DNA of 64,000 nucleotides from Leptolyngbya sp. BC1307 (GTDB lineage: Bacteria; Cyanobacteriota; Cyanobacteriia; Phormidesmidales; Phormidesmidaceae): NCBI RefSeq assembly GCF_002286735.1, contig NZ_NRTA01000007.1:1-64000 (forward strand). The letters are read 5' to 3'. Made by a program: the position numbers and the translations under genes. How positions within the stretch are numbered: the stretch's first letter is position 1; the number at the start of each line of letters is the position of its first letter. The notes under the pieces are model-generated. The model had not been told where the DNA came from. It saw nothing but the letters and a program-made list of their open reading frames with translations, and searched no databases. This document shows positions 50,270-55,616 of the stretch, one piece after another.

Positions 50270-50302
50270 TCTAGTCGCTTTAGCCTAGTCGCTTTAGCCT
50301 AG
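50261..50302. repeat. 14-bp triplicate array shared by two convergent stop codons
   Basis: Three copies of TCGCTTTAG(T/C)CTAG, followed by a degenerate partial copy. The first copy contains the plus-strand TAG (50267-50269) of the TPR gene. The third contains the complement of the minus-strand TAG (50299-50301) of the next gene. Confidence 0.9.
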
Positions 50303-50892
50303 TTGCTTTCGTCTATCTGAGAAATTGCATAGCGGGCCGCAGCCAAGCTCAGGCGGGCTTGCTCTAGCGGTGAGAGGGCATCCCAGTCGGCTGAGCGGAC
50401 TGAGCGGATCGTCGCCTCGACAAATTCTTCATCGCTGCTGCCGCGCATTGCCAGGGCCATTGGCCGGGCCATTACCTGCAGGTCTGATTCGGCGACTTGG
50501 GTGAGGCGATCGCGCACACAGGCGAGCATCTGTGCCATCATCGGTTGACCGCTGCAGGCGACCTGCTGTGCGCGATCGCTAATGTGGGCAATCATCGTGG
50601 GCGACAGGCGGCTAGCAAACTTCTGCTGTAGCTGCAAAATCAAGCTGTCATCCCATAGCTCATGCAGCTGCTGAGAAAGCCCCTGCCAGCCCTGAGCAGC
50701 CTCCGCATCAGAAATCTCTAGCACCTGACCGGCTGCCTCAGCGCGGGCTGCATACTCTGCCGACATCTCTGCCGATAGCCACAGATAGCCGTCTGTCTCT
50801 AGCACAGCTTGCAGCAGCTCAGCTTGATCAGCCGACATCTGTGCCGGCCTAGCGCTGTTCGAATCGCCAGAAGATGAGGATTGATTAACCAT
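50299..50892 (-). CDS. unknown protein, third gene of the PP2C/CHAT cluster
   Basis: I choose the ATG at 50892 (MVNQSSSSGDSNSARPAQ), because the ORF-track extension runs back into the CHAT gene's end without coding character. The 197-residue protein is helical and acidic. It contains ETDGYLWLSAEMSAEYAARAEAAGQ and LHELWDDSLILQLQQKFASRLSPTMIAHISDRAQQVA. I recognise no domain or transmembrane helix. It lies 133 nt downstream of the CHAT-FHA gene on the same strand, so it may be co-transcribed. Adaptor, substrate or regulator roles are possible. Confidence 0.6.
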   Translation of the reverse strand: MVNQSSSSGDSNSARPAQMSADQAELLQAVLETDGYLWLSAEMSAEYAARAEAAGQVLEISDAEAAQGWQGLSQQLHELWDDSLILQLQQKFASRLSPTMIAHISDRAQQVACSGQPMMAQMLACVRDRLTQVAESDLQVMARPMALAMRGSSDEEFVEATIRSVRSADWDALSPLEQARLSLAAARYAISQIDESN

Positions 50893-51025
50893 AGGGGGCT
50901 TGCCTGATTTAGCAAAATTGTAAAATCTGACTTGAGAAAACGTGTCAAAGAACGTGACAAAAAGGAGATACAGCCTCAGCGCCAGTCGTTCCGCATCGCT
51001 GACAAAATCTCTGCGATCATTCTGA

Positions 51026-52651
51026 TCATTCCACCACCACAAACTCTAGTAGCCGCCCATCTGACTGACTGCCAAACCGAATCTGAGTCCCTGAAGACAG
51101 GGTGATTTCTTGGCGGTGTACCTCTCGCCAGCTGCCATCTTTGCAGTAGAAAGTGCCATAGCGAGAATTATCTCGCAGAAAATAGGCGGTCGCTCTGCCG
51201 TCGCCAGTCTGCTGCGCGGCTACCCGCCGATGAAAGATTTCAGCGTGACTGCTAGAGACCCAGGGTTCAGAAATTACCAGGTCATTAGCCTCGGGCCGGC
51301 GACCGATGCGCATCACGTCGCTATAGATCGGCCAGACATGCTCAGGATGGTCGGAGTCGCGGAGCATGGCCTGCTGACGGCTCGGCAAGAAATTAGTGTG
51401 CGCGTTGATTTGCGTAGTCTTATCAGAGAGCAGGAGCGCCCCGTCAAAATCAGGGTGCATGTAGAGGACGGGCAACGTCCAGGCGGGCTGGTTGAAGTGA
51501 TAGAGGGTGAGCAGGTGCTGCCGGGCGATCGCTACTGCTTCATCTACCGGTTTGCGCTCTGCCAAAGCCTGAGCAAAGACCTGAATAAAGCTAATCGCCT
51601 CCTCATCGGCAATCGAGTCGCGCATGGCCACTACGGCAGGCAATCCGTGGTGCAGCAGCACTTCTGCCAGGCTACTGCGAGGGAGCGCTATCTGCTGGCT
51701 TTCTTCTGGCTGCGCCCCCCAGCAGGTATTAAACACCGCTAGCTTTACCCGCGTGCGAATTAACACCTGAGACAGCTCAGTCCCACTCAGGCTCGCAGCC
51801 GATAAAAACAGCACCCCTCCATCTGGCCCCGGCACCCCATGACCCGAATAAAAAAACACGTTATACCCACCGCTCTCCAGCGCCTGAATTAGCTCTGCGG
51901 CACTGGGCTGCAGCAGCATATCTACTTGCCTTTTAGCGGTAGGGCGCAGGTTCAAGTCGCTGCTCTGCTCTAAAATCTGTTTCAGCAGCGTCGCCTCTTG
52001 CTCCAGCTGGAGGCGGGCTGTGGTTGGCGCTTGATCTTCGCCAGGGCTATCTTGACCCAATACCAGTAAAATCTTGAGCGATTTATCTAGAGGTGCCGGA
52101 TCTAGCCGCTCGACGTTGCTGCTGGTCCGGCTGAACAAAATTTTTCGATTCAGCGACAGCGCCCGGCTGCCCGACTGGGGCTGCATAATTTCCCAGGGCA
52201 GGGCAATCAGCGCCGGATCGCGAATTTCTAGCCGCAGCCGCAGCGGTAGCTCCTGACCCATCGCAATGCCCTGAGATTGATCTAAAGATCGCTTGACCGG
52301 CCCATTAAACAGCCACTGCCAGAGGTTGACGCCCAGGTGCTGCATGTAGCGGCTACTGTAGCTAGTGGGCTGACCACCGGGGTCTAAGTTCCCTGCTATA
52401 TCGTCAACCTCTTCGAGGACAAACTGAGGAATATAAGCTGAGGGAATATGCGGCACCTGAGGCAGACCCCGCAGCGAAAAAAATGATTGCCAGTTCTGCC
52501 ATGCCTGAGCTAGCTGGGGACTCCACGGGCAGTCGTAATGGACATGCCCCGCCGGATAAGGCGCTCTGAGTACCCAAATCGCAAAGCGATCGCGCTCCGC
52601 TAGCAGACTATCTACCGCCACCCACAGGCACAGAGAATCTCGCTCAGACAT
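51026..52651 (-). CDS. CHAT-domain (caspase-like) protease fused to an FHA domain
   Basis: I use the ATG at 52651 (MSERDSLCLWVAV), which overlaps the upstream TGA as TGATG. Residues ~1-140 are a less conserved N-terminal domain (LEIRDPALIALPWEIM). The CHAT catalytic dyad is visible: His271 in FFYSGHGVPGPDGG and Cys310 in LAVFNTCWGAQ. It is followed by the family's AVVAMRDSIADEEAISFIQVF helix. The C-terminal ~95 residues are an FHA domain (MRIGRRPEANDLVI, SSSHAEI, LRDNSRYGTF) that should bind phosphothreonine. No kinase gene is adjacent; the partner gene is a PP2C phosphatase. Confidence 0.88.
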   Translation of the reverse strand: MSERDSLCLWVAVDSLLAERDRFAIWVLRAPYPAGHVHYDCPWSPQLAQAWQNWQSFFSLRGLPQVPHIPSAYIPQFVLEEVDDIAGNLDPGGQPTSYSSRYMQHLGVNLWQWLFNGPVKRSLDQSQGIAMGQELPLRLRLEIRDPALIALPWEIMQPQSGSRALSLNRKILFSRTSSNVERLDPAPLDKSLKILLVLGQDSPGEDQAPTTARLQLEQEATLLKQILEQSSDLNLRPTAKRQVDMLLQPSAAELIQALESGGYNVFFYSGHGVPGPDGGVLFLSAASLSGTELSQVLIRTRVKLAVFNTCWGAQPEESQQIALPRSSLAEVLLHHGLPAVVAMRDSIADEEAISFIQVFAQALAERKPVDEAVAIARQHLLTLYHFNQPAWTLPVLYMHPDFDGALLLSDKTTQINAHTNFLPSRQQAMLRDSDHPEHVWPIYSDVMRIGRRPEANDLVISEPWVSSSHAEIFHRRVAAQQTGDGRATAYFLRDNSRYGTFYCKDGSWREVHRQEITLSSGTQIRFGSQSDGRLLEFVVVE

Positions 52652-55146
52652 CAGCCACCACAACTTCCCTTTTGGGTAGGCTGCAAGTCTTGAATAGTCT
52701 CTGAAACCAGCGCCACCTGAGACGCCACTACCCAGCCTTCACTACCCGGCGACAGCACCAGTGGCCGGTCAGTTTGAATCGACTCGGGCGGGTTGAGGGT
52801 CGTGCTCCCGCTAGCTGCTGGATTGGGGGTATCGGTCTCAGCGGGCACCTCTGCTAGCGTCTCGCCTGACGGAATGGAACACAGCTTGAGCTGTACCCAC
52901 TGAGACTGATCATCGGCAGTTTGCCGACCGATCACCCGAACAATTCCACCTGTCGGAATGGTACCTGGGATCACATTGACTGCCGCGCCACCTGCCGCGA
53001 CGGGGCTGGGATAGAGGGTCAGCGGTGAGAAGCCACCGGACGATAGGCCATTATTGCCACCGTTTGAGCTGGTGATGCCTGGCACATCTGACTGACGAAT
53101 GCGCGCGTAGGAACCCACCTGGAGGTTAGCCGCTGGCGGCTGAGTCGCTGGGGCTGGGCTAGGCGCTGGGCGCACCTCGCTAGAATTGTCTCCGTCTGGG
53201 AGATCAGCCACCGATGGCTGCAGCCGCCAGCTCAGGCCCGGCAAAAGCCAGTAGAGAACACCGCCAACCGCCGCGAGCAGTAAGATGGCCAGGCTAGCAA
53301 CCTTCCAGCCCGATTGGGCAGCGGTTTTGACTCCGCCTGTTTTGACTCCACCTGTTCTGACAAAGGAGGGTTTGGCTGCTGCCGATTTTTCTGATTTAGC
53401 AGTAGCTGCCGTCATTAAGGGGGTTGACGGTGCCGCCTGGCTGGTGGCACCCGGATTAGCTGCGAGCAGACCCGTGTGCCGACGAGTGGTTTGAGCGGTG
53501 GGTCTAGCGTCTGCCGCAACGGGACTGGCCAGTTCTCTGGGCACAATTTGATCGGAGTCGCGGGTGACTCGGGCTGTCAGTAAGCCTACGGTGACGTTGT
53601 CATGGCCGTTGTATTTGTTAGCCAGGTCAACTAAGTGTTGACCCGCTTCAGCGGTAGGGCTACCGTCCGTGATCAGTGGCAGAATGGCGGACTGCCAGAA
53701 CTGCTCGACGCGATCGCCATCACTCAACCCATCCGAGCACAGCAAAAACACACAGGTCTGATCGAGCACAAAGCGCTGCACCGTGGGCCGCAATACCTGC
53801 GATGAGCCCATTCCTAATGCCTGAATCAGTGAGCCTGAGCCCGGCTGTAGAAGCACTTCACGATAGAGACTGCCGCCTAGCCGTACCTGCCGTGAGGCAA
53901 CGTCATCGTCGAGCGTTACCTGCTGGCAATTTTGCTGGCTGATGCGGTAGGCCCGGCTGTCGCCCACGTGGGCAATGTACACCTCTGTGCCTCTGACGAG
54001 TGCCAGTACCAGGGTGGTGCCCATGCGATCGCGGGCCTGTCGCTGAGCTTGGTCGTTTTGCGCAGAAATTTCGTCATTGGCAGCGCAAATGGCCTCCTCT
54101 ATTGCCAGCAATAGCTCAGTAGCGCTCATATCGTCTGGCGAGGCCGTTAAGATCGGCTGAAGCTGTGCCTCAATTGTGGCGATCGCCAGCTTAGAAGCCA
54201 CATCTCCGCCCTGATGACCGCCAATACCATCGCAGACAATCAGCAGCTGCGGCGTTATCCGGGTTTGCTCGCTGGTCAGCGACTGGGTCGAGCCACTTGC
54301 CGGATAGCAGGCATCTTCATTGCGTTTGCGCGTCGGCCCCTGATCGGTGTAGACAGCCAGGTCGTAGCTGACCGCCTGATTTTGGCCGCAGAGGGCGATC
54401 GCCTGACTTAGCTGGTCAGCTAGCTGCTCGGCGGTGAATAGCTGGCGCTCTAAGCCTTCACACAGCCGCTGCAGAAATGCTCTAATGGCCGGACTAGCAG
54501 TCTGGACTAAAGGAAGCCAGCTGTGGCCTAAATTCATCAGCGTCGGTTCGACCGCTGCGCCGCCCGAGGCAGTCGGCGGGGCTAGCTCTAGCAGCCGCAA
54601 GACTGAGCCATCTACCCGCAGTAACGATTCATCCAGCAGGGTCGGTGCAACCTGCTCTGCCTGCATAGCATCCCACAGCTGAGCCACCTGCCAGAGCCAG
54701 CTCAGCTGCCTCAAAGGGGGCGCTTCAGGCCACTGGGTGACCAGCTTGGGCAGCAGTTCAGGGACGCTAGCGATTTGTCCATCGGTTCTGAAGGGGGTTG
54801 CTAGCGCCGCAGATTCCAGCATCAGAACGTCATCGTCATCGGGCGATCGCAGTACCGCATAGGGGCGAGGCACATGCAGCGGATAAGCCGACAGATGCAA
54901 ATAGGGCAGCAAAAAATCAGGCAGTTCTGGCAGAGATTCCGGGATCAGACCAGGCTGGGTATCTAAAAAAGTGCGATCTTGCTTGAGCAAGTAGCGCTGA
55001 TTGATCATCGCACCGGGCCTGAGCGTACTTACTAGTTCACCCACGCCCCACAAATAGTGATAGGGCAGCACCGACCGACAACCCTGACAGACATGAGCCC
55101 CCTCAGGGTTGGCGGTTTTGCAGCTAGGATTAGGGCAGTTAATCAC
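52651..55146 (-). CDS. zinc ribbon / pseudokinase-like / PP2C phosphatase membrane protein
   Basis: An N-terminal zinc ribbon has Cys4, Cys9, Cys20 and Cys23. Residues ~35-250 look like a degenerate Ser/Thr kinase lobe (LRQLSWLWQVAQLWDAMQ; LRVDGSVLRLLEL) without HRD or DFG. The PP2C domain spans ~265-525: TDQGPTRKRNEDA, CDGIGGHQGGDVAS, HVGDSRAYRIS, CSDGLSDGD and NGHDNVTVGLL, all with metal-binding aspartates. A 15-bp in-frame repeat gives TGGVKTGGVKT before a membrane helix (VASLAILLLAAVGGVLYWLL). A secreted P/S/G-rich SH3-like tail follows. It has 831 residues and a GTG start inside a 13-bp repeat array. Confidence 0.85.
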   Translation of the reverse strand: MINCPNPSCKTANPEGAHVCQGCRSVLPYHYLWGVGELVSTLRPGAMINQRYLLKQDRTFLDTQPGLIPESLPELPDFLLPYLHLSAYPLHVPRPYAVLRSPDDDDVLMLESAALATPFRTDGQIASVPELLPKLVTQWPEAPPLRQLSWLWQVAQLWDAMQAEQVAPTLLDESLLRVDGSVLRLLELAPPTASGGAAVEPTLMNLGHSWLPLVQTASPAIRAFLQRLCEGLERQLFTAEQLADQLSQAIALCGQNQAVSYDLAVYTDQGPTRKRNEDACYPASGSTQSLTSEQTRITPQLLIVCDGIGGHQGGDVASKLAIATIEAQLQPILTASPDDMSATELLLAIEEAICAANDEISAQNDQAQRQARDRMGTTLVLALVRGTEVYIAHVGDSRAYRISQQNCQQVTLDDDVASRQVRLGGSLYREVLLQPGSGSLIQALGMGSSQVLRPTVQRFVLDQTCVFLLCSDGLSDGDRVEQFWQSAILPLITDGSPTAEAGQHLVDLANKYNGHDNVTVGLLTARVTRDSDQIVPRELASPVAADARPTAQTTRRHTGLLAANPGATSQAAPSTPLMTAATAKSEKSAAAKPSFVRTGGVKTGGVKTAAQSGWKVASLAILLLAAVGGVLYWLLPGLSWRLQPSVADLPDGDNSSEVRPAPSPAPATQPPAANLQVGSYARIRQSDVPGITSSNGGNNGLSSGGFSPLTLYPSPVAAGGAAVNVIPGTIPTGGIVRVIGRQTADDQSQWVQLKLCSIPSGETLAEVPAETDTPNPAASGSTTLNPPESIQTDRPLVLSPGSEGWVVASQVALVSETIQDLQPTQKGSCGG
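53325..53354. repeat. in-frame 15-bp duplication inside the PP2C gene
   Basis: TTTTGACTCCGCCTG is followed by TTTTGACTCCACCTG and a partial third copy. It encodes repeated TGGVK on the minus strand just before the membrane helix. Confidence 0.8.
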
Positions 55147-55218
55147 TGAACTTAATCACTGAACTTAATCATTGAACTTAATCATTGAACTTAACCACTG
55201 AACTTAACCACTGAACAA
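55141..55218. repeat. 13-bp tandem array, 6 copies, over the PP2C gene start
   Basis: Six head-to-tail copies of AA(T/C)CA(C/T)TGAACTT, the last slightly degenerate. On the minus strand each unit reads AAGTTCA(G/A)TGATT, so several copies contain GTG or ATG followed by ATT. The first copy in forward coordinates holds the GTG at 55146 that I take as the PP2C start. There are no spacers, so it is not a CRISPR. Confidence 0.92.
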
Positions 55219-55247: not shown

Positions 55248-55616
55248 CTATGACGCAGCGGACGCACTAGCGGCGTCGCCACTCCCTTCGACGACACGAG
55301 GCAAGCCCATACTGTAGTTCAGCACGCGGCTTTCCAGGTTGTAGCTAATATCTCCCGACTGTAACAGGGCGCGGACAAAATGCTCTAAATCTGAGCCAAT
55401 TCGCCGCAAATTATAGTCTGTCAGCGCTTCTGAAGCGTATTCTTCCACTAACTGGTCGAATTCGCGGTTGACCTTCTCAATGGCCTCATCATTCCAAATA
55501 AATTCGTTTTCTGGGTCAATGTCCAGCGTCAGTTCGTTTTCGCTGGGCACTAGCTCATTGTTTTCGACAGTTGCCGCATAGATTTGAATATGACGGGTCG
55601 TAGACTTTAGCAGCAT
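55248..55616 (-). CDS. ndhM: NDH-1 subunit M
   Basis: An oxygenic-photosynthesis-specific subunit of the NAD(P)H dehydrogenase-like complex. The pattern MLLKSTTRHIQIYAA, LTLDIDPENEFIWNDEAIEKV, LTDYNLRRIGSDLEHFVRALLQ and ESRVLNYSMGLPRV is the NdhM family. It has 122 residues. It is upstream of the PP2C gene on the same strand (~100 nt, including the 13-bp array), so read-through is possible, although the functions look unrelated. Confidence 0.93.
   Translation of the reverse strand: MLLKSTTRHIQIYAATVENNELVPSENELTLDIDPENEFIWNDEAIEKVNREFDQLVEEYASEALTDYNLRRIGSDLEHFVRALLQSGDISYNLESRVLNYSMGLPRVVEGSGDAASASAAS

Follow-up and report, generated by a model that had tools for sequence, protein, structure and literature searches.

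Background

CHAT proteases are encoded beside an orphan gene in several bacterial defence and cell-death systems. Craspase is an example of this layout (PMC9729208). In Anabaena, the CHAT protease HetF is reported to cleave PatU3 (PMC12288457, citing Xing 2022). In GarA and OdhI, a threonine phosphorylated by PknG sets an intramolecular switch (PMC8546545, which cites Nott 2009). No publication on a CHAT-FHA/PP2C module was found by title or abstract in a search outside which most subscription papers lay. Here, we describe such a module in a cyanobacterial window (the whole stretch of 64,000 nucleotides that was analysed). Our main reading, to which we give a probability of about one half, is that of a housekeeping, vertically inherited CHAT protease module, phospho-switched at Thr413 of the CHAT-FHA protein and provided with an obligate partner, the third protein.

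Organization of the locus

Downstream of ndhM (55251-55616), the minus strand carries the PP2C gene, the CHAT-FHA gene, and a third gene, in this order. The last three lie at 50299-55146, where the preliminary description had placed them:

52651..55146, minus strand: PP2C gene (P0001), 831 aa, GTG start (Pfam, invariant metal-site residues)
51026..52651, minus strand: CHAT-FHA gene (P0002), 541 aa (Pfam CHAT and FHA)
50299..50892, minus strand: third gene (P0003), 197 aa, all-helical product, orphan partner (AlphaFold)

The TGATG overlap reported earlier was found as well: the PP2C stop codon TGA (52653-52651) and the CHAT-FHA start codon ATG (52651-52649) have one base in common. This overlap is limited to the clade of the window (e.g., loci L031 and L034), and in other genomes the two genes are mostly separated by gaps of about 36-500 bp. 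The gene order ndhM-PP2C-CHAT-third was kept across about 40 loci; besides ndhM, hemC and glgA are neighbours in some lineages. A start of the third gene at TTG 51042 was rejected. The most likely start is ATG 50892, as M1 is invariant in 40 homologues. A 13-bp tandem repeat, TTAATCACTGAAC, is present in six copies at 55139..55216, where it covers the start codon of the PP2C gene and extends into the gap between this gene and ndhM.

The PP2C protein

The following parts of the PP2C protein were distinguished:

55063..55146, minus strand: zinc ribbon, residues 1-28 (conserved Cys and Pfam matches in orthologues)
54382..55062, minus strand: pseudokinase domain, residues 29-255 (AlphaFold and Foldseek)
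53572..54363, minus strand: PP2C catalytic domain, residues 262-525 (Pfam, metal-site residues)
53239..53310, minus strand: single transmembrane helix, residues about 613-636 (Kyte-Doolittle)
52654..53238, minus strand: tail after the transmembrane helix, residues 637-831, possibly SH3-like (conserved residues, SH3_3)

The zinc ribbon noticed earlier was borne out among 31 orthologues, with C20 invariant and C4, C9, and C23 kept in at least 90%; matches to DZR/Zn_Ribbon_1 were obtained among the orthologues (best 4.1e-06). The kinase-like character of the next region had been left for a structural check. An AlphaFold model of residues 1-262 reached a pLDDT of 93.3, and a Foldseek search with the pseudokinase model returned protein kinases as the top PDB matches (best 1ywn, E 6.7e-4, probability 1.00, TM about 0.4), which confirms the kinase-like fold. 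Inspection of the sequence of this region revealed neither HRD nor DFG, and the domain is therefore a pseudokinase. The N-terminal zinc-ribbon/pseudokinase domain recurs in PP2C-sized paralogues.

The phosphatase core proved intact, as had been described: P0001 matched PP2C_2 (6.5e-13) and PP2C (1.4e-10) in Pfam, and the metal-site residues D278, D306, G307, D472, and D516 are invariant in the 31 orthologues, so that the metal-binding Asp residues place the protein in the PP2C family. The membrane helix and long tail were also recovered. The hydropathy value was 2.28 over 19 residues at position 616, and the helix stands at the same place in the 31 orthologues. Their tails are about 145-225 residues long, with C756 invariant and C829 and W805 near-invariant. 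Matches to SH3_3, presumably within the tail, were obtained in three of the 31 full-length orthologues (best 0.0018). HltA was considered as a counterpart of this PP2C and was ruled out, because its GAF domain and its place in a different PP2C group set it apart (PMC9430166).

The CHAT-FHA protein and the linker Thr413

Four features of the CHAT-FHA protein are relevant here:

51839..51841, minus strand: codon of the putative catalytic His271 (His in 135/135 orthologues)
51722..51724, minus strand: codon of the putative catalytic Cys310 (Cys in 135/135 orthologues)
51413..51415, minus strand: codon of Thr413, candidate phospho-switch in the linker (invariance among orthologues)
51029..51370, minus strand: FHA domain, residues 428-541 (Pfam FHA)

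The Pfam search with P0002 returned CHAT (1.4e-20) and FHA (5.1e-10). The idea of a protease system had been made to depend on conservation of the His271/Cys310 dyad, and both residues are invariant in all 135 orthologues, which come from across cyanobacteria. P0002 thus combines the domain and the dyad of a CHAT protease, and it is predicted from its sequence to act as a peptidase. A sequence search of CHAT-FHA against the PDB gave matches to the FHA part only. Within this part, the residues of the GR and SxxH core motifs are kept in most orthologues (S466 in 134/134, H469 in 132/134, R451 in 126/134). Position 498, usually the Asn of the NG motif in FHA domains, is Asn in only 10 of 133 and mostly Tyr or Phe in the others. 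The phosphate-contacting R451 is replaced in eight orthologues, all of which still have Thr413. Because of these losses and the Tyr/Phe at 498, the domain may bind phosphopeptides weakly or in an unusual way.

FHA domains are readers of phosphothreonine, not of phosphoserine. Thr413 is a threonine in 134/134 orthologues and never a serine; it is the sole invariant Thr of CHAT-FHA and the sole invariant residue of the otherwise variable stretch 405-427. This invariant residue in a variable linker is what the present sequence comparison adds, and its pattern of conservation makes it a plausible phospho-target and a candidate phospho-switch. The linker motif is T-x-[LIMF]-P, with Pro in 128 of the 134 orthologues, and reads TQIN in the window and its clade. 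Since it was not found in 11 HetF paralogues, the motif goes with the FHA domain and not with the protease fold.

Thr413 could also be structural. The same protease module might use T-x-L-P as a structural or self-cleavage (zymogen) site, with the FHA domain recruiting substrates via their phosphothreonine. The prevalent Pro at Thr+3 would fit a docking strand or a processing site equally well, and Thr413 persists in the eight proteins devoid of the FHA Arg. On the other hand, a strict Thr next to a domain that reads phosphothreonine, and a motif missing from HetF, where this protease domain occurs without an FHA domain, are harder to reconcile with this explanation, which we find unlikely but worth serious attention. 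If Thr413 is a phospho-target, as in our main reading, the earlier idea of a reset by the PP2C becomes more concrete. The preliminary description had joined a phospho-relay and a protease with a response to phages; the former part gained a definite residue in the invariant Thr413, and the latter is not supported, as no meaningful defence relative and no viral relative was found.

The third protein

The AlphaFold model of the third protein (pLDDT 84.8) consists of eight helices. No Pfam family was found for this protein; in the PDB, its best match by sequence was a designed helical bundle, with no natural relative, and the model had no significant fold match in the PDB or among viral structures. 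A conserved Thr was sought as a possible FHA ligand, and no invariant Thr was found. In the phylum sample of 244 genomes, the third gene occupies at most one locus per genome. A convergent gene for an FHA-like protein of 440-480 aa (ARALSPTRSQNFATRF) often adjoins it (L066, L069, L071, L092, L093, L108, L111, L124). At L124, this FHA-like protein is found beside the third gene although CHAT-FHA lies elsewhere. It is possibly linked to the module.

Co-occurrence of the genes

In the phylum sample, CHAT-FHA was present in 60/244 genomes, the third gene in 62/244, and both in 59/244 (Fisher p 9e-52, with phylogeny ignored). The genes thus recur beyond the strain in which they were first noticed, with the third gene in 59 of the 60 CHAT-FHA genomes, and the one exception is a draft genome (G276). 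The third gene adjoins CHAT-FHA in 46 genomes. In the remaining 13 of the 59 genomes, both genes are kept though unlinked, and therefore linkage alone does not explain their co-occurrence. For family f27, in which the genes are unlinked, the hypergeometric p for CHAT-FHA and the third gene was 0.005. Three genomes have the third gene without CHAT-FHA. In G166, the FHA tail sits at a contig end, so this case is probably an assembly gap. In G061 (L111, G061:C16), an FHA remnant with seven stops lies between the PP2C gene and the third gene, and CHAT-FHA has decayed in place; in G247, the third gene stands alone. The pseudokinase-PP2C family was found in 90 genomes, with paralogues, and of the 57 genomes examined, 35 have a PP2C gene upstream of CHAT-FHA. 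Given the wider distribution, the paralogues, and this limited adjacency, the PP2C is less firmly tied to the protease than the third gene is.

These data bear on whether nothing more than a conserved neighbourhood joins the three genes, with CHAT-FHA, the PP2C, and the third protein acting in separate pathways. The TGATG overlap of a single clade, the frequent location of the PP2C gene elsewhere, and the third genes that outlasted CHAT-FHA in G061 or occur without it in G247 are all in keeping with such an arrangement. The joint retention of unlinked genes and the 59/60 co-occurrence oppose it, more strongly for the CHAT-third pair than for the PP2C, and we judge it improbable. Synteny and co-occurrence back the functional unit proposed earlier. 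The evidence that CHAT-FHA and the third gene form a conserved unit is far stronger than that for the mechanism suggested here.

Inheritance of the module

The distances between CHAT-FHA proteins correlate with those between NdhM proteins (r 0.91), and the module, next to ndhM, has been passed on vertically. As the distances of all four neighbouring genes correlate strongly, no interaction was deduced from such correlations. The module proteins had no meaningful match to PADLOC defence families, no relative of the module was found in viral contigs, and no copy of the third gene was found in plasmids. Among the matches listed for plasmid CHAT proteins, identity was at most 28% and query cover at most 68%, and the annotations are those of other proteins. 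The module has neither of the marks of an anti-phage system that were looked for, a PADLOC family match or a mobile or patchy distribution. Vertical inheritance and the lack of a viral or defence relative speak against a phage-defence island. The stress- or phage-triggered (abortive) self-proteolysis suggested at the outset, like that of Craspase or CHAT-gasdermin systems, shares with them the layout of a CHAT protease and an adjacent orphan gene, but we consider it very unlikely in view of these searches, the single, vertically inherited third-gene locus, the proximity of housekeeping genes (ndhM, joined by hemC and glgA in some lineages), and a third protein unlike any solved fold.

Proposed mechanism

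For the housekeeping protease module, we infer the following course of events. CHAT-FHA would be a cytoplasmic caspase-like cysteine protease, and phosphorylation would control its activity or localisation. Thr413 in the linker would be phosphorylated by a Ser/Thr kinase whose gene lies elsewhere. The adjacent FHA domain would then bind the phosphorylated residue, either within the same molecule, as GarA and OdhI do, or in trans, and so switch the protease. Removal of the phosphate from Thr413 would fall to the membrane PP2C, which has its pseudokinase as a putative sensor or docking domain and an extracytoplasmic tail. The third protein would be an obligate partner, most likely a substrate or a direct regulator. 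Only tentatively do we propose the narrower version, in which an intramolecular pThr413-FHA switch, reset by the operon-mate pseudokinase-PP2C, sets the activity of the protease, and the protease serves a single orphan partner or substrate, as a core pathway of cell regulation in cyanobacteria parallel to HetF-PatU3. If the mechanism is true, HetF would be joined by a second CHAT protease pathway in cyanobacteria, and Ser/Thr phosphorylation would be coupled to regulated proteolysis. Single residues (Thr413 and Cys310) would then be open to testing, and the orphan partner family would be the candidate substrate.

Comparison with known systems

The Craspase TPR-CHAT of type III-E CRISPR resembles CHAT-FHA in its CHAT protease fold and in the dedicated partner encoded nearby, whereas the operon described here has no TPR, gRAMP, or CRISPR and stands in a housekeeping context. 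The likeness to GarA/OdhI lies in a Thr that precedes the FHA domain in a flexible part of the chain. Those proteins have no protease domain and carry the motif ETTS; in CHAT-FHA the motif is T-x-[LIM]-P, and its phosphorylation is a prediction. The PRK14559 Ser/Thr phosphatase (NF011149) has the PP2C domain in common with P0001. P0001 scored 256 bits against this model, under the curated cut-off of 374, with a match that spans the PP2C part only, and it has in addition the transmembrane helix and a tail some 200 residues long.

HetF (NF045509) is, like CHAT-FHA, cyanobacterial, and its CHAT domain is homologous and contains the His/Cys dyad. It differs in the long low-complexity, transmembrane, and other segments after CHAT, and in having neither FHA nor the T-x-L-P linker. 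Against the HetF model, CHAT-FHA scored 180 bits, with a curated cut-off of 1200, and it is distinct from the HetF equivalog in both score and architecture. The genome of the window encodes a separate HetF paralogue (G000:C3), which together with the low score identifies CHAT-FHA as a HetF paralogue. HetF is also present in 51/60 CHAT-FHA genomes, a count not corrected for phylogeny. The nearest characterised relative of CHAT-FHA is thus HetF, a protease of division and development, rather than Craspase.
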